Origin: a virus
Length of the DNA: 30,472 nucleotides
Strand: one strand, 5' to 3'
Virus record (IMG/VR): IMGVR_UViG_3300021373_000276
Location: 1 to 30,472 of that record
A program made the translations under genes and the position numbers. Of this stretch, positions 7,446 through 18,559 are shown piece after piece. The notes below the pieces were generated by a model. It was not told the origin of the DNA, searched no databases, and saw only the letters and a program-made list of their open reading frames with translations. Every line of letters starts with the position of its first letter. The stretch's first letter is position 1.

Positions 7446-8953
7446 TATAACTGCTCAGTGCTAGAGCCTTTTGATGGCTCAATAAGCTCATCACCACCTG
7501 CCACATCTTCAAGACCAATCTTCTCTCTAACCTCGTTAGGAGTAACAACACCTGCATCAATGTGGTAGCTGTAAATCTGGGTCTTCTCTGAGAAGTCGCC
7601 AACAGTCTGTGTGCTAGTCTCAATCTCATTGTGTGCTTTAAGCAAGGTATCATCATCTAATAGTAGATCAGCAATCTTCTTGTCGATCTCTTGCGCTAGG
7701 GTAACAGACTTAACGCCAGTTGCTCTCATCTGCTGTAGGAACACAAGCTCCTTATCGTAGTCTCTTAGGTCAAACGAATCAGGATAAAACACTTCTACGT
7801 CTGCTGTGATGTCTTGCCACTGACAGTACAGTAACCATAGCTGTTCTTCTGCTAACTCTAAAAGATCAGCCTTTTCTGACAGCTTGGCATTAAGCATCTG
7901 AAACTCTGTCTGCAATGCAACGCCTGACTGCTTAACAGCTTCTGTGCCACGCACTGCTCCCATGTGTGCCATGCGGTTGATACACTCTACCTTATCCTTA
8001 ATAGACTTCATTACAGCATCTAGGTTTGCGCCTGATGGTTGCATCTGATAAGGCTTTAGGTTGCCATCCATATCATCAGGTAAGTTAATTACCGCACCTG
8101 CACCTGCGCTAGCATCTGTCTCATACGTTTTAACTAGTGTTGGGTGGTTGCTAATGCGAATCAACTGCTCTACTTCTGATAACTCTTGGTAAATAGCTTT
8201 CTGCATCGGAGCAATGTCTGTGAGATCGCTTACGCCAATACCGCGAATAACTGACCTGTTAGATGGCAGGAATACAGCAGGAATGCGACCAAGCGGATTA
8301 TCAATCTCTTCAATTAGCTCAGTGCCATTTGCGTTATGCATATAGGTAGTGATCTTGTCTTTAGTCCACTCCTTGAAAAACGACTCATACTCAGACTCGC
8401 TAATATAGTTTACTTGCTCTCTAATCTTTAAATACTTTAGCTCAAATCTGCCGCTAGGTGCTCTCTCATACTCCCAATCGAACACATTCTCTGGCGTGTA
8501 AAGGGTAGTGTATGGTCTGATGTCTTGCTCTAGCTCTTGCGCCTTAGTGCCTGCGTTAGACTCTGGCTTGTCCATCACCAACCAAACATGACCATAAACA
8601 CTTGCCCAGACTTGCGCCTGTCTCATGAAGGCGTTAAATGATCTACCATCTAGGTCTGCATCTTTTAGAAATGACGGCAATGTTGGGTCATTAGCCACTG
8701 AGTTAAATGCTCTTGTTGGCGGTACGCGCCATAAGTAAGAACTGTAGATGTGGATAATGTTCTTACAATGATTATCCATAGGCGTTAAGTCTAGCCTACG
8801 GTTGTAATCTGAACTATCTTCGTTTATGTATTGTGTTAGGTAATGTCCATCAACGTATTCTTCCCCGCCCATGTAAGAGCGCAAAAAGAACTCCCATTGA
8901 TTCTTGTATATCTCATACTGGGGGTGCGTATCTGTAACGCTTTTATCTTCCAT
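7445..8953 (-). CDS. portal protein
   Basis: A 502-residue protein between large terminase and the MuF-like protein. The start is taken at the ATG at 8953, which overlaps the terminase stop as TGATG and has AAGGTGG upstream; a GTG three codons earlier is less likely. Recognisable portal features are the N-terminal helical wing (NRRLDLTPMDNHCKNIIHIY), a clip or stem-proximal segment with YTPENVFDWEYERAPSGRFE, the conserved LGRIPAVFLPSNRS motif followed by SDLTDIAPMQKAIYQELSEV, and a C-terminal helical crown. The 12-fold ring it forms is the DNA channel and the dock for terminase and connector. Confidence 0.85.
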   Translation of the reverse strand: MEDKSVTDTHPQYEIYKNQWEFFLRSYMGGEEYVDGHYLTQYINEDSSDYNRRLDLTPMDNHCKNIIHIYSSYLWRVPPTRAFNSVANDPTLPSFLKDADLDGRSFNAFMRQAQVWASVYGHVWLVMDKPESNAGTKAQELEQDIRPYTTLYTPENVFDWEYERAPSGRFELKYLKIREQVNYISESEYESFFKEWTKDKITTYMHNANGTELIEEIDNPLGRIPAVFLPSNRSVIRGIGVSDLTDIAPMQKAIYQELSEVEQLIRISNHPTLVKTYETDASAGAGAVINLPDDMDGNLKPYQMQPSGANLDAVMKSIKDKVECINRMAHMGAVRGTEAVKQSGVALQTEFQMLNAKLSEKADLLELAEEQLWLLYCQWQDITADVEVFYPDSFDLRDYDKELVFLQQMRATGVKSVTLAQEIDKKIADLLLDDDTLLKAHNEIETSTQTVGDFSEKTQIYSYHIDAGVVTPNEVREKIGLEDVAGGDELIEPSKGSSTEQL

Positions 8954-10179
8954 CAAGTCCACCTTGTCGGCTGTTGCACGTTATATTCTTTTCGTACAGG
9001 GAACAGGTACTCAACTAAATAACCTAATGCATCGTTCATGTGATCGAAGCCATCTTTATTAGGTTGCGATGTTCCCTCTTTGTATGTTTGTCTTTCTAAA
9101 CTCTTAATCGTCTGCTTGCAATTTGGACTAAAGAACAAATGCCTTTGACCATTTGATGACAGCAAACGACTATTCACCGCGTTAATTCTATCCCTGACTA
9201 ACGGGTGTTGCTTCTTCACCTTAACGCTAAACCCTGCGTTTTGTAAGATCGACAAATCTGTGCGACCGCCTGCGCTTGTTTTGCGCTGTCTTGATGCGGG
9301 GTCAGGAAAGATAACGCACTGCCGATTAGGATAACGCTCCTTGATCTCGGCAACCATCTCATCTGTATTTGACCCATACATGACTATTTCATCTATCGCC
9401 AACAGGTTCTGCCCATGCCTAATGCATATAACAGCACTCATTGGATCAAGGTTAAAGTCCATGCCCACTAACAAAGTTCCACCAGTGTCTTCTACATTGA
9501 CAACTGATAGCTCTCTACTAAATGCATAATATATCAAACCAGAGTAAGTAACAAACTCAGCGCAGTATTCTTGGTTAAAAGTGCGCTCATCTAAGTCCAT
9601 TCTGGCTTGTTCTATTTCTTCTTCAGGTACATTACCGCCATCTAAGGTTGTGTACTGGAATGAATCCCAACCGTCTGCACCATTTAAACCTGTTGCCCAT
9701 AAGTCATAGAAATGGTTTCTGCCTTTAGGCGTACCGATAAACAATGCTCTGGTCGGGCTATCCTCAGTATGCCTATCCGATAGAGATGGTCTTAGAACCT
9801 CATTCCATGCCTCTGGTCGCATATCTGCGAACTCGTCTAGCACCACAAAGTCCAATGCCCTACCTCGTAGGTTGTTAGGCTTCTCTGCACCTTTAAGGCT
9901 AATGGTCGAACCGTTAATCAGCTTGATCGTTAACGCTGTCTCATTAGTCTTAGCAACATACTCTTCTGGGATTGTGTGTATAAGCATATCCCAAGCAATC
10001 TCTTTAGCAGCACCGTAGGTTGGCGCAACGTACCAACAGTTTCTATTAGCACCCCCAATGGCGGCTCTTAGAATCTCACCTGTAGACAGGAACGTCTTAC
10101 CAAACCGTCTACCAGCCACTACCGCCCTGAATCGACTAGGCGAACAAAATATCTCACTCTGCGGCTTTGTTAATTGCAT
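8953..10179 (-). CDS. terL: terminase large subunit
   Basis: A 408-residue packaging ATPase-nuclease. Walker A is GRRFGKT at 23-29. Walker B is FVVLDE at 111-116 with the catalytic Glu at 116. The coupling motif is LFIGTPKG at 146-153. The C-terminal RNase H-like nuclease has Asp at 241 (VGMDFNLDP), Asp at 293 (FPDPAS) and Asp at 379 or 383 (FDHMNDALGY). Length is normal for the small siphophage group. It overlaps the small subunit by 26 bp and the portal by 1 base. It docks on the portal and translocates and cuts the DNA concatemer; a headful or cos mechanism cannot be decided from the sequence alone. Confidence 0.95.
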   Translation of the reverse strand: MQLTKPQSEIFCSPSRFRAVVAGRRFGKTFLSTGEILRAAIGGANRNCWYVAPTYGAAKEIAWDMLIHTIPEEYVAKTNETALTIKLINGSTISLKGAEKPNNLRGRALDFVVLDEFADMRPEAWNEVLRPSLSDRHTEDSPTRALFIGTPKGRNHFYDLWATGLNGADGWDSFQYTTLDGGNVPEEEIEQARMDLDERTFNQEYCAEFVTYSGLIYYAFSRELSVVNVEDTGGTLLVGMDFNLDPMSAVICIRHGQNLLAIDEIVMYGSNTDEMVAEIKERYPNRQCVIFPDPASRQRKTSAGGRTDLSILQNAGFSVKVKKQHPLVRDRINAVNSRLLSSNGQRHLFFSPNCKQTIKSLERQTYKEGTSQPNKDGFDHMNDALGYLVEYLFPVRKEYNVQQPTRWT

Positions 10180-15187: not shown

Positions 15188-15549
15188 GTTTTTCTCTCCC
15201 CATCCCAGTAGAAACCATACTTTCCTATAAAGTGATTAATGGCTCTGTTCTTAGCCTCTACGTTTTGTATCCAACTCACATCAGCTAGGCTGTCTTCTAC
15301 TGACCTGTTCCTCAAACTGTCAGTCTTAGCTCTAACTTGCGGTGAGCCACCTTTGTCTTGCGCTCTAGCTAACCAAGCATTTATAAACCTCTTAATACCT
15401 TTAGGTGTTTTTCTGCGTGTAGGGTTAGCATCAAGCCATGACTCCATAGCATTTATCTCATGGTAGACATTAATCGCAGGGTAGGTTTTCTCCCACTGAA
15501 TTATGTCCTCTTGCTTTGGTTCGTAAGTATCACCGTTATTTAGAAGCAT
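15184..15549 (-). CDS. replication-associated protein (helicase-loader/O C-terminal-like)
   Basis: I take the ATG at 15549 (MLLNNGDTYEPKQEDIIQWE) because GGTGA lies 6 bases upstream and the 14-bp overlap with the HTH gene is normal; an earlier alternative start would overlap more. The product has 121 residues. The block 'YPAINVYHEINAMESWLDAN' followed by 'KTPKGIKRFINAWLARAQDK' resembles the C-terminal part of phage replisome organiser or replication protein O-like proteins that recruit helicase. Here it stands alone next to a small HTH protein, which could be the separated DNA-binding half. Function is inferred from this similarity. Confidence 0.55.
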   Translation of the reverse strand: MLLNNGDTYEPKQEDIIQWEKTYPAINVYHEINAMESWLDANPTRRKTPKGIKRFINAWLARAQDKGGSPQVRAKTDSLRNRSVEDSLADVSWIQNVEAKNRAINHFIGKYGFYWDGERKT

Positions 15550-15760
15550 CGCGATCACCGTAATAGTATTCAGCGACACTGCACTTCTCATCGTATCGGT
15601 TAGTTACGGTAATCATTTTCTTTTTGATAGGATGACCTAGTTCTTTTAGTTCAAAGATTCTAGCGGCTACCTGAGTAATGCCAAGTTCATTAAAAGCATT
15701 TAGGCAGGTTAACTTTTTGCCATCTTGTAGATATTGTAAAACTCTTGCTGTCTGTGTCAT
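15536..15760 (-). CDS. small winged-helix HTH protein
   Basis: A 74-residue protein, MTQTARVLQYLQDGKKLTCL..., matching a short HTH type (HTH_39-like) in which 'FNELGITQVAARIFELKELG' is the recognition region and 'HPIKKKMITVTNRYDEKCSV' the wing. It starts 1 base after the methyltransferase stop with GGGGAA upstream. It could regulate the early operon or act as the DNA-binding part of a two-gene replication initiator with the following gene. Both are hypotheses. Confidence 0.68.
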   Translation of the reverse strand: MTQTARVLQYLQDGKKLTCLNAFNELGITQVAARIFELKELGHPIKKKMITVTNRYDEKCSVAEYYYGDRDASK

Positions 15761-15761
15761 G

Positions 15762-16625
15762 TTATTCCCCTTGATTCCTATTGTTTAAAATATACCATGC
15801 TTTTGCGGCTGTTTGTGGAACTACTCCGTTCCCCAAGAGCCTAAGTCTGTCAACTTTGTGGGCAAACCCATCATCTGTTCTACCCAATCTGGGTTTAAGT
15901 CGTGTATTTTCCCAATTGTAGGGCTTACTTCCTTTTCCTGCGGGAAACGTCTCGCCATCGCGGAGATGCTTGGCGATTGCCTTTTCTGGGCAGCTTGCAT
16001 ATCTCCATCGTCTCTGCTGTCTCGCGCACAAGGTGTTGGAAAAAGTTTCACCTGTCTGCAAAGCATCATTTGATTTGCAGTATCCATGTTCTTTGAATCG
16101 GCAGTTTGCGGAGTCAGCCAATATAAACACTCTTTTTCTTTGGTGGTTCGCGCCAACTTCATTCGCTGAGAATAATCCCCACGTTGATCTGTAACCATCT
16201 TCTTCCATATCGCTGATGACTGTGCTGAGTCCAAGCGATACGTGTCCTTGCACGTTTTCAAAGAAACATTGGGTAGGTCTAATTGCTTGTATGTGTCGCC
16301 TAATGTGCGGCCATAAGTGTCGTTCATCTTCTGTTCCTTTTCGCAATCCTGCTGCTGAGAATGGCTGACAGGGATAACCGCCAGTGATAAGGTCAACTCT
16401 GTCTCGAAAGACTTCTGATGGAAAGGTTTTAAGATCCGTAAAAATAGGTGCTGGAGCCAGATCACCCGATTCCATCTTCGCAACCAAGTTTGCAATCGCG
16501 TAGGCTTCGATCTCCACATAAGCGATGACTCTATGCTTGACTCCAATAAGGTCAAGTCCTCTTTCGATGCCACCATATCCTGAGCAAAAGCTGAGTACAG
16601 TGGGTAGTTCTTCGGTATTATCCAC
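15762..16625 (-). CDS. dcm: DNA (cytosine-5) methyltransferase
   Basis: A 287-residue C5-MTase. Motif I is FCSGYGG at 13-19 (SAM binding). Motif IV is GGYPCQPFS at 82-90 with catalytic Cys 86. Motif VI is ENVQG at 123-127. Motif VIII is QRKRVFI at 162-168. Motifs IX-X run from RLGRTDDGF to RLLGNGVVPQTAAKAW (LGNGVVPQTA at 264-273). The target-recognition region (about 170-240) is short. The start is GTG at 16625 with AGGAG upstream; an ATG two bases earlier belongs to another frame (see next entry). No cognate restriction enzyme is nearby, so it likely protects phage DNA from host restriction. Confidence 0.9.
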   Translation of the reverse strand: MDNTEELPTVLSFCSGYGGIERGLDLIGVKHRVIAYVEIEAYAIANLVAKMESGDLAPAPIFTDLKTFPSEVFRDRVDLITGGYPCQPFSAAGLRKGTEDERHLWPHIRRHIQAIRPTQCFFENVQGHVSLGLSTVISDMEEDGYRSTWGLFSANEVGANHQRKRVFILADSANCRFKEHGYCKSNDALQTGETFSNTLCARQQRRWRYASCPEKAIAKHLRDGETFPAGKGSKPYNWENTRLKPRLGRTDDGFAHKVDRLRLLGNGVVPQTAAKAWYILNNRNQGE

Positions 16626-16627
16626 AT
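15821..16627 (-). other. second long open frame overlapping the methyltransferase, with MTase-like C-terminal motifs
   Basis: From the ATG at 16627, two bases before the methyltransferase GTG, another frame stays open for 268 codons. It has AGGAG 6 bases upstream, a slightly better spacing than for the GTG. Its C-terminal third reads LFPTPCARDSRDD (195-207) and LNPDWVEQMMGLPTKLTDL (244-262). These resemble the 'PTP.ARD' and 'LNP.WVEWLMGFP.GWTDL' motifs of other phage C5-MTases, while the main frame covers the same DNA with motifs IX and X. The N-terminal two thirds has no recognisable domain. It is either an ancestral-frame relic (overprinting) or a shadow. I do not claim it is expressed. Confidence 0.35.
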
Positions 16628-17029
16628 TAATTTCTCCTATGGCTCGGTCAAGCCTCGCCTGATTATGTTAATAGTTAGTGTGTAAACATTTTTATTCAAA
16701 CACGTTTCACCCTTTAACTACGCAAAGTTAAAAATTCGATCAAAGGGCAAAGCGACTTCGCGGTTATTTCGTTATCGTATCGAATATCTAATCTATCCAT
16801 CAGCAGAAACCGATCTGCATCAGGGGCTATGTCAAGAGGGTCAACTTCGCTCTAGTGTTTAATTTAAGAGATTCACTAGCCTCTAGCCCGATAACTAAAG
16901 TGCGAAAAAGAAAGGAAAGAATGTTACAAGACACTATAAGACTGTGTTAGACTATCTTTTCTCAATCGGCACATTGAGTATTACATTCCTCTATGTAATT
17001 GTAAAGCCCCCTTTATAGGGGGTTTTCTT
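16626..17029. other. 404-bp gene-free control region
   Basis: No convincing protein gene lies here. It holds a perfect inverted repeat at 16713-16732, a wider one at 16852-16879 (CTAGTG/CACTAG), two adjacent TTGAC copies on the minus strand (16844-16839 and 16835-16830) without clear -10 boxes, and a run of hairpins at 16961-17022. A DnaA-box-like TTATCCACA occurs at 16618-16626. It separates the recombination and regulator genes from the methyltransferase operon, and is the best place to look for promoters, operators and perhaps an origin. A 28-codon frame at 16800-16714 has no ribosome-binding site. Confidence 0.6.
16713..16732. promoter_or_regulatory. perfect inverted repeat, possible operator
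   Basis: TTTAACT and AGTTAAA (7 bp each) are separated by the 6 bases ACGCAA, a geometry suited to a dimeric repressor. It lies about 90 bases upstream of the methyltransferase start. A small Cro/CI-type regulator is encoded nearby, but binding is only inferred. Confidence 0.45.
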
Positions 17030-17031
17030 TT
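16961..17031 (+). ncRNA. candidate structured small RNA: three hairpins in a row
   Basis: On the plus strand there are three consecutive stem-loops: CTCAAT/ATTGAG (16961-16978, loop CGGCAC), ATTACAT/ATGTAAT (16980-16999, 7 bp, loop TCCTCT) and CCCCC/GGGGG (17007-17022), the last followed by TTTTCTTTT. This is the form of a small RNA with an intrinsic terminator. The hairpins are symmetric, so the minus strand could also fold, but its U-run (CTTTACAATT) is weak. I see no convincing promoter upstream on the plus strand, so expression is unproven. The RNA would end over the stop codon of the HTH gene. Confidence 0.35.
17007..17031 (+). terminator. intrinsic terminator, stronger in plus orientation
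   Basis: CCCCC-TTTATA-GGGGG is followed on the plus strand by TTTTCTTTT (17023-17031). In the minus direction it begins 7 bases after the HTH gene stop and is followed only by CTTTACAATT. It may act in both directions, but the U-run favours plus-strand transcripts. Confidence 0.6.
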
Positions 17032-17224
17032 ATAGCGCGATAAACTCATCTAAATTGTATTCTAAGGCACTGCAAATCTTGATAGCAGTATCTAGTCTTA
17101 CATTGGTTTTATTGCGCCAGATGTTCACCTGCTGCCTGTGAACGCCCAACTGCCTTGCAAGCTGTGAACTGTTTACGTTTTTTACTTGCTGTGCTTTCTT
17201 TAAACACTCGCCAAAATCTATCAT
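17030..17224 (-). CDS. Cro/CI-type HTH transcriptional regulator
   Basis: A 64-residue single-domain protein. SSQLARQLGVHRQQVNIWRN (about 19-38) is the helix-turn-helix, followed by the helices LDTAIKICSALEYNLDEFI typical of the HTH_3 (XRE) fold. There is no dimerisation or peptidase domain, so it resembles Cro more than a full repressor. AGGAG lies 7 bases before the ATG. A 16-codon frame ends over its start. Minus-strand orientation, like all other genes, means there is no divergent cI/cro switch. Inverted repeats upstream and downstream are candidate binding sites. Confidence 0.82.
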   Translation of the reverse strand: MIDFGECLKKAQQVKNVNSSQLARQLGVHRQQVNIWRNKTNVRLDTAIKICSALEYNLDEFIAL

Positions 17225-17271
17225 TCCATTCTCCTATATGTTAATCTGTCGGTGATGGTTTCCCCGATCAT
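17221..17271 (-). CDS. possible 16-residue leader peptide upstream of the HTH gene
   Basis: An ATG at 17271 with AGGAG two bases upstream opens a frame MIGETITDRLTYRRME. Its TGA overlaps the HTH start as ATGA, the usual sign of translational coupling. The start lies in a stem formed by GTGATG and CATCAC (17274-17252 on the minus strand), which could hide the initiation site. The spacing between ribosome-binding site and ATG is short. It may be a regulatory leader, or it may be chance. Confidence 0.35.
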   Translation of the reverse strand: MIGETITDRLTYRRME

Positions 17272-17286
17272 CACTCCTATGGTTTA

Positions 17287-17313
17287 CCCGCCCTTTCGGG
17301 GGCGGGGTTTTTT
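17287..17313 (+). terminator. intrinsic terminator in plus orientation
   Basis: CCCGCCC-TTTCGG-GGGCGGG forms a 7-bp GC stem, followed on the plus strand by G and six T. In the minus direction, after the SSB-like gene stop, the hairpin is followed by TAAACC with no U-run. It is therefore clearly a plus-strand terminator, although no plus-strand gene lies before it. It may stop antisense transcripts of the HTH gene. Confidence 0.7.
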
Positions 17314-17652: not shown

Positions 17653-18261
17653 TTAGTTTGCTTCTCGGAACTCAGTGGTTTTCATAATAGCGCGTTCTTG
17701 AGTGCTGAACACTCCACCGCGACTGGGGGCGCGCCATAAAAGTTGTTTTTCAGTATCGGATAATTCTGACCATGCCTCGTTAGCAGTCGATAGATCGCCA
17801 GTAGCAATGCCATCTTTTATCGCCTTAACGCTAGGCAACAGGTCAACAATCATATCCTGATAGGCTTCTTTCTCTTTGCTTGCATCTGTAAACTCTTGCG
17901 GCTTAACCTGCCCCATGTACAGACACATACCTAATCCATGCATTGCAATCGCCTTAACTAAACAGCGTATACGCGCATCAGATATATCTCTGCTTGATGG
18001 GTTCTCAATAGCCTTGTTTCTAAAGTCCATAACAGGCAACCACATAGAAATAGCCTTGCCCTCTACAGTTACCGTTACCTCGACCTCTACAGTGTTTGTC
18101 TTGTCGCACCATCTAGGCTCGCTGTAGCTATAACTAGAATCAGGATAGTGTTCGCAGAGGGTAGACCAAGCCCACCCCCACGATAGATAATGCAAGCCAC
18201 CTTTAGTCTCAATGTGATTAGACACATCAATCTTAGATAGCGTACTCCATACGTTACTCAT
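17653..18261 (-). CDS. Sak3/DUF1071-like single-strand annealing protein
   Basis: A 202-residue protein. The N-terminal WSTLSKIDVSNHIETKGGLH followed by YLSWGWAWSTLCEHYPDSSY and the conserved LPVMDFRNKAIENPSSRDIS followed by DARIRCLVKAIAMHGLGMCL are the signature of the DUF1071 (Sak3) group of phage recombinases. These anneal complementary single strands, promoting recombination and repair of replicating phage DNA. The C-terminal part is less conserved. Its ATG overlaps the upstream stop by 4 bases, and the SSB-like gene follows, supporting a joint role. Confidence 0.87.
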   Translation of the reverse strand: MSNVWSTLSKIDVSNHIETKGGLHYLSWGWAWSTLCEHYPDSSYSYSEPRWCDKTNTVEVEVTVTVEGKAISMWLPVMDFRNKAIENPSSRDISDARIRCLVKAIAMHGLGMCLYMGQVKPQEFTDASKEKEAYQDMIVDLLPSVKAIKDGIATGDLSTANEAWSELSDTEKQLLWRAPSRGGVFSTQERAIMKTTEFREAN

Positions 18262-18455
18262 TTATATTCTCCCATAGTTTGTTTTATGAACGGTTCAAAG
18301 ATGTCCTCGTTATACCAAGAGGCGCAAGCATCTTTAGCATACTGCTCGCCATAGCCTCTGTAGTATTCATCTGATTCGCAATCTCTTGCCTGATGACCAT
18401 GTACGCAGTCGTACTCACCGCGCTCGTAGTCAGAAAGGTTATTTATATCTGTCAT
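18258..18455 (-). CDS. hypothetical protein, 65 residues, first gene of early operon
   Basis: The protein begins MTDINNLSDYERGEYDCVHG and contains HQARDCESDEYYRGYGEQYA. The 'YDC.HGH.A....SD.YYRGYGEQY' pattern is common in small phage unknowns. It is acidic and rich in Tyr and Asp. GGAG lies 7 bases upstream of the ATG. It is the first gene after the lysis terminators and a promoter-like element, so it is probably expressed early. Function unknown. Confidence 0.65.
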   Translation of the reverse strand: MTDINNLSDYERGEYDCVHGHQARDCESDEYYRGYGEQYAKDACASWYNEDIFEPFIKQTMGEYK

Positions 18456-18535: not shown

Positions 18536-18559
18536 AAAAAAAAGCCCCATTAAAGGGGC
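18536..18559 (-). terminator. intrinsic terminator after the lysis genes
   Basis: On the minus strand GCCCC-TTTAAT-GGGGC is followed by eight T. It lies 32 bases after the endolysin stop and ends the structural and lysis transcript. Stem length and U-run make it the clearest terminator of the window. Confidence 0.88.

Follow-up and report, generated by a model that had tools for sequence, protein, structure and literature searches.

Few systems have yielded phage sRNAs, and the annotation of phage genomes normally covers proteins alone. In the layout typified by the OOP RNA of phage lambda, a short, terminator-ended RNA lies opposite an early operon and beside a small HTH regulator. In staphylococci, the C-rich-loop sRNAs of the RsaA/RsaE/IsrR type use unpaired C-rich segments to target Shine-Dalgarno sequences. 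The lambda OOP RNA (pO-tO) is antisense to the cII mRNA (reviewed in PMC12197685), and the c4 RNA of P1/P7 acts on a phage mRNA, ant, by blocking the region of its ribosome-binding site (PMC12197685). Finally, large structured RNAs of phages and metagenomes such as GOLLD are conserved, covarying and known mainly from comparative genomics (PMC12286853, PMC2864571).

The locus described here lies in an IMG/VR virus record whose 30,472 bases, which carry siphovirus genes, make up the whole window; its source is an uncultured, apparently marine phage. The first-pass annotation had described an all-minus genome in which two hairpins, each followed by a U-run on the plus strand but not on the minus, bracket the only Cro/CI-type regulator. 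The minus strand does hold all convincing protein genes, and among the proteins searched the regulator is the sole one of its type, a winged HTH (PF14090) also being present. The features of the locus are as follows.

15536-15760: winged HTH, PF14090.
16634..16645, minus strand: GAGCCATAGGAG, the Shine-Dalgarno region in front of the gene that directly follows the ncRNA; a predicted sRNA1 target from linker pairing.
16708..16898, minus strand: structured ncRNA of ~190 nt with two domains, from covariation (model R2).
16945..16953, plus strand: extended -10 promoter element of sRNA2, TGTTAGACT, from TGnTAnnnT conservation.
~16960..17032, plus strand: sRNA2, a predicted three-hairpin RNA of ~73 nt, ended by the left terminator.
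16977..17005, minus strand: sigma-70-like ncRNA promoter TTTACA-17-AATACT, start at ~16970, with the same spacing in relatives.
17003..17032, plus strand: left intrinsic terminator, a hairpin with a U-tail.
17030..17224, minus strand: 64-aa Cro/CI-type HTH regulator (PF13443, 1.5e-10; PF01381, 6.7e-7).
17239..17247, plus strand: extended -10 promoter element of sRNA1, TGTTAATCT, from T.TG.TA...T conservation.
17252-17274, plus strand: hairpin 1 of sRNA1, with a C-rich loop.
~17254..17313, plus strand: sRNA1, a predicted RNA of ~60 nt composed of hairpin 1, linker and terminator (cmsearch model R1).
17274-17285, plus strand: anti-Shine-Dalgarno linker of sRNA1, CUCCUAUGGUUU (as CUCCUAUGGUUUA, 17274-17286), from pairing and ranking in relatives.
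17287..17313, plus strand: right intrinsic terminator, a hairpin whose U-tail is kept, with cUUCGg or GNRA loops in relatives.
17653..18261, minus strand: gene for a Sak-type single-strand annealing protein (PF06378, 3.8e-36).
18269..18280, minus strand: AAACTATGGGAG upstream of sak, a predicted sRNA1 target from linker pairing.

Both hairpins combine a GC-rich stem, a short loop and a U-rich tail on the transcribed strand, the hallmarks of intrinsic (Rho-independent) terminators, and both sit directly after minus-strand stop codons (17316, 17030). With the tails read on both strands, the left hairpin (17007-17022) is followed by TTTTCTTTTATA on the plus and CTTTACAATTAC on the minus strand, and the right hairpin (17287-17306) by GTTTTTTACC and TAAACCATAGGA, respectively. 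The entire window has just three perfect hairpins with a minimum of five G-C pairs; the third, at 18544-18559, has a U8 run on the minus strand, where it is a normal terminator and the sole member of this class. Hairpin/U-run sites thus number two on the plus strand and one on the minus across the window, against a mean of 0.045 per strand in 200 dinucleotide shuffles, which never reached two or more; the asymmetry noted at first pass therefore stands, beyond chance expectation. The minus-strand terminator at 18544-18559 marks the boundary between the lysis and tail genes and the sak operon.

Relatives, several dozen independent contigs in all, were collected from IMG/VR by three routes: a Sak scan, an ncRNA-core scan and an HTH-leader scan. 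The plus-strand U-tails are kept in nearly every IMG/VR lineage, and that of the right hairpin in all of them, weakest in L092 (4 T in 8) and with no U-tail on the minus side; such conservation was the check that had been suggested for the U-runs. The stem of the right hairpin varies among lineages (CCCGCCC, CCCCCTC, CCCACCCC, GCCCCC), and its plus-strand loop in most of them is UUCG closed by C-G, GAAA or GCGA, all of which are stable tetraloops only when read as plus RNA. Loops of GCAA or GUAA occur in a number of left hairpins. Only part of the group has a left hairpin: it is absent in L016, L087, L092 and L110, and no left terminator is evident in the sequences compared from L119 and L134 either.

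No relative was returned when the region was searched by BLAST against INPHARED (phage genomes of isolates) and PLSDB (plasmids), or by two pattern scans of GTDB genomes; the phage group with these RNAs is known only from metagenome-derived viral contigs. The TerL gene (8953-10179, minus) shows 51-53% identity to those of Pelagibacter phages HTVC111P, HTVC202P, HTVC026P and HTVC112P, a hint as to lineage. Both sRNA1 and the ncRNA are absent from the four genomes of Pelagibacter phages and related phages that were tested, and from the distant sak phages L018-L081. L002, L008, L011 and L015 carry, just after sak, a small inserted ORF (MKKLIIALSLLSMSTAVYSSCFW...) that begins like a signal peptide and separates sak from the following gene.

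The right-hand RNA, sRNA1, is predicted to start at a sigma-70 extended -10 element of the TRTGnTAnnnT type, which lies past the HTH start codon, ahead of the right terminator and a few bases upstream of hairpin 1. The pattern T.TG.TA...T (a TGnTAnnnT extended -10) does not vary among the 35 sequences scored, while most neighbouring positions do. The stem of hairpin 1 varies with compensation and its UUCCCC loop is kept in most lineages; the plus fold is more stable than the minus fold in 32 of 33 unique sequences, and G-U pairs number 63 as plus RNA versus 13 as minus. The 35 sequences were aligned via a linker pattern, and most were fetched with the linker as the search pattern, so linker conservation was not counted in that set but in the Sak-derived and ncRNA-derived sets. 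Eight of the nine contigs reached only via the ncRNA motif carry sRNA1, and in every copy the same extended -10 is accompanied by a C-rich loop, the linker core CUAUGGUUU and a U-tail. Model R1 gives a score in the divergent L087, L092 and L110 too, although it was itself built partly from them, and lineages devoid of sRNA2 still have sRNA1.

Conserved extended -10s, tetraloops, G-U pairs and U-tails thus all favour the plus-strand transcripts that the first-pass annotation had predicted. Its more specific proposal, that the right terminator ends an RNA running antisense across the regulator, is not supported: the predicted sRNA1 starts ~30 nt past the start codon of the HTH gene, clear of both the HTH coding sequence and its Shine-Dalgarno. 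The antisense relation is confined to the untranslated leader in front of the HTH gene, to which the linker is perfectly complementary.

Within the linker lies the exact complement of the 9-mer CCATAGGAG, which occurs elsewhere in the contigs in 23 gene-strand contexts, nearly all of them Shine-Dalgarno sequences, versus once on the other strand (590 kb). Of the 48 start regions of the window, those with the strongest predicted linker pairing are the Shine-Dalgarno at 16645-16634 (12 bp, -19.4), in first place, and the site upstream of sak at 18280-18269 (12 bp, -16.4), in second. The gene after the ncRNA ranks first for linker pairing in most lineages, even though its Shine-Dalgarno (CCATAGGAG, CCAATAGGAG, CCATAAGGAG or CACATAGGAG) and the gene itself differ, and sak, where identified, usually ranks 1-5 via AAACTATGGGAG, AAATCATGGGAG or AAACTTTAGGAG. 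Conserved complementarity to the start regions of genes encoded elsewhere, as in a trans-acting anti-Shine-Dalgarno RNA, is thus found in the group, but the same genes fail in L087, which lacks CUCC, and in L092 and L110, where other genes outrank them; L108 no longer has a linker match at its post-ncRNA gene. Rather than to antisense control of the regulator, as first proposed, the pairing points to the Shine-Dalgarno regions of sak and the post-ncRNA gene, with the caveats that Shine-Dalgarno sequences are alike among themselves and that duplication might account for part of the likeness between the HTH leader and the target leader. As the pairing breaks down in the remotest lineages, the target of sRNA1 is the weaker claim and the existence of the predicted RNA the firmer one.

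In the window, the gene directly after the ncRNA codes for a C5 cytosine methyltransferase (15762-16645). In most relatives it is a winged-HTH gene (PF14090 type) or some other gene that occupies this position and uses its Shine-Dalgarno, with the leader unchanged. That leader, GGCGAGGCTTGACCGAGCC (16634-16662), directly 5' of the Shine-Dalgarno, is conserved whichever gene follows and could form a small hairpin.

At the other side of the regulator, the short RNA that had been proposed to end at the left terminator finds a plausible counterpart in sRNA2. In all 19 unique relatives with a left terminator, exactly one TGnTAnnnT occurs at the same upstream place, and six further lineages (L117, L123, L129, L133, L141, L147) have sRNA2 together with its extended -10. 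The three hairpins show compensatory changes, and G-U pairs number 27 as plus RNA versus 5 as minus. The 3' end coincides with the HTH stop codon, and the HTH coding sequence is not overlapped. A search for sRNA2 targets gave nothing convincing. The predicted starts of sRNA2 (~16960) and the ncRNA (~16970) face each other, and their promoters overlap (16945-17005). In L008 and L010, a dyad, ACAGTA-AAA-TACTGT, lies upstream of the sRNA2 -10 and represents a possible operator.

The minus-strand ncRNA was found in all sRNA1 loci whose sequence extends far enough. Across 20 diverse sequences, its structure comprises 49 pairs, 29 of them with two-sided changes, and 97.3% of cells are paired; none of 500 shuffles matches this covariation, and slid structures give 38-48%. 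G-U pairs exist only in the minus orientation and turn into A-C breaks in the plus, so the ncRNA was rejected as a candidate for the plus-strand short RNA. In lineages without sRNA2, the promoter lies immediately before the ncRNA, and in L092 it takes the form TTTACA-17-TATAAT, 6-8 nt before it. The ncRNA has no Rfam match, no family of Rfam 15 being reached at the gathering cut-off, and permissive thresholds yielded only chance matches to unrelated sRNAs; an open-access literature search found no description of sRNA1, sRNA2 or the ncRNA. With covariation beyond that of shuffles and a strand fixed by G-U pairs, the predicted ncRNA is a new, previously undescribed family, and it may serve as a leader element for the operon downstream.

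Other readings of the two hairpins must be weighed against that of discrete RNA genes. Their position directly after minus-strand stop codons would suit elements whose sole role is to halt pervasive antisense transcription at the 3' ends of minus genes, with no discrete functional sRNA, but such elements would not explain invariant extended -10s at fixed places, a covarying 5' hairpin with a C-rich loop or a conserved linker, and we regard this reading as unlikely. The same position, which for the right hairpin is also before the HTH ribosome-binding site, might instead indicate a service to the minus-strand mRNA, as 3'-end stabilizers, processing sites or HTH leader structures. We consider this very improbable: U-tails and stable tetraloops are on the plus strand, G-U pairs favour the plus reading (63:13 and 27:5), and a true minus-strand terminator in this genome (18544-18559) carries its U8 on the minus strand. 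The idea of a leader peptide preceding the HTH gene was likewise rejected: such a peptide is not conserved, and in L007 its frame runs on without a stop into an in-frame fusion. If transcription from the sRNA2 promoter read through the left terminator, it could yield a long plus-strand RNA that covers the HTH coding sequence as antisense and stops at the right terminator; however, the right terminator has a conserved promoter of its own beyond the HTH start codon, and sRNA1 is kept in lineages without sRNA2, which together leave us giving this reading the least credence of all.

The best explanation, and one we hold to be quite probable, is that the locus carries two plus-strand sRNA genes, that the sRNA1 linker masks Shine-Dalgarno sequences and that the sRNA2 and ncRNA promoters interfere with each other. 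The terminators, conserved promoters, plus-strand folds, minus-strand ncRNA and conserved complementarity are established by comparative sequence analysis; production of the RNAs, its timing and a repression of translation by pairing are what we infer. sRNA1 would be transcribed from its extended -10 promoter, back to back with the HTH ribosome-binding site, and would fold into a 5' stem-loop with a UUCCCC-type loop, a single-stranded linker (CUCCUAUGGUUU) and the terminator. The linker would then base-pair with Shine-Dalgarno sequences of phage mRNAs, most likely above all those of the post-ncRNA gene and sak, and block their translation. As the sRNA2 promoter faces and overlaps that of the ncRNA, firing of one probably hinders the other, and the HTH protein may choose between them.

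The phage group probably uses RNA to control early genes. It is tempting to go further and envision an RNA-centred early switch, in which sRNA1, sRNA2 and the ncRNA flank a Cro-like protein, an sRNA silences sak and the post-ncRNA operon, and the ncRNA acts in the leader, e.g. through processive antitermination or ligand sensing; this broader scheme is tentative, and we would lean slightly against it. Three conserved RNA genes have here been found from sequence alone, with predicted strand, promoters, ends and likely targets, and the predictions are sharp enough for testing in existing metatranscriptomes.

Among described systems, the lambda OOP RNA and the c4 RNA of P1/P7 are the nearest analogies. 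Like OOP, the predicted sRNAs are short, terminator-ended and located on the opposite strand beside a small HTH regulator. Unlike OOP, neither sRNA1 nor sRNA2 overlaps the coding sequence of the early regulator, and sRNA1 would carry an anti-Shine-Dalgarno for other genes; any relation to OOP in sequence was judged through the Rfam comparison. With c4, sRNA1 shares the predicted blocking of a phage-mRNA ribosome-binding site, but the pairing segments of c4 are thought to lie in loops, whereas sRNA1 would pair via an inter-hairpin linker and have its own extended -10 promoter. The C-rich unpaired segments of sRNA1, apparently aimed at Shine-Dalgarno sequences, recall RsaA, RsaE and IsrR; the analogy is a functional one, as those sRNAs are chromosomal and differ in host and sequence. 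Like GOLLD, finally, the ncRNA is conserved, covarying and known from comparative genomics, although at ~190 nt it differs from the large RNAs of that type and falls below the cut-off of every Rfam 15 family.
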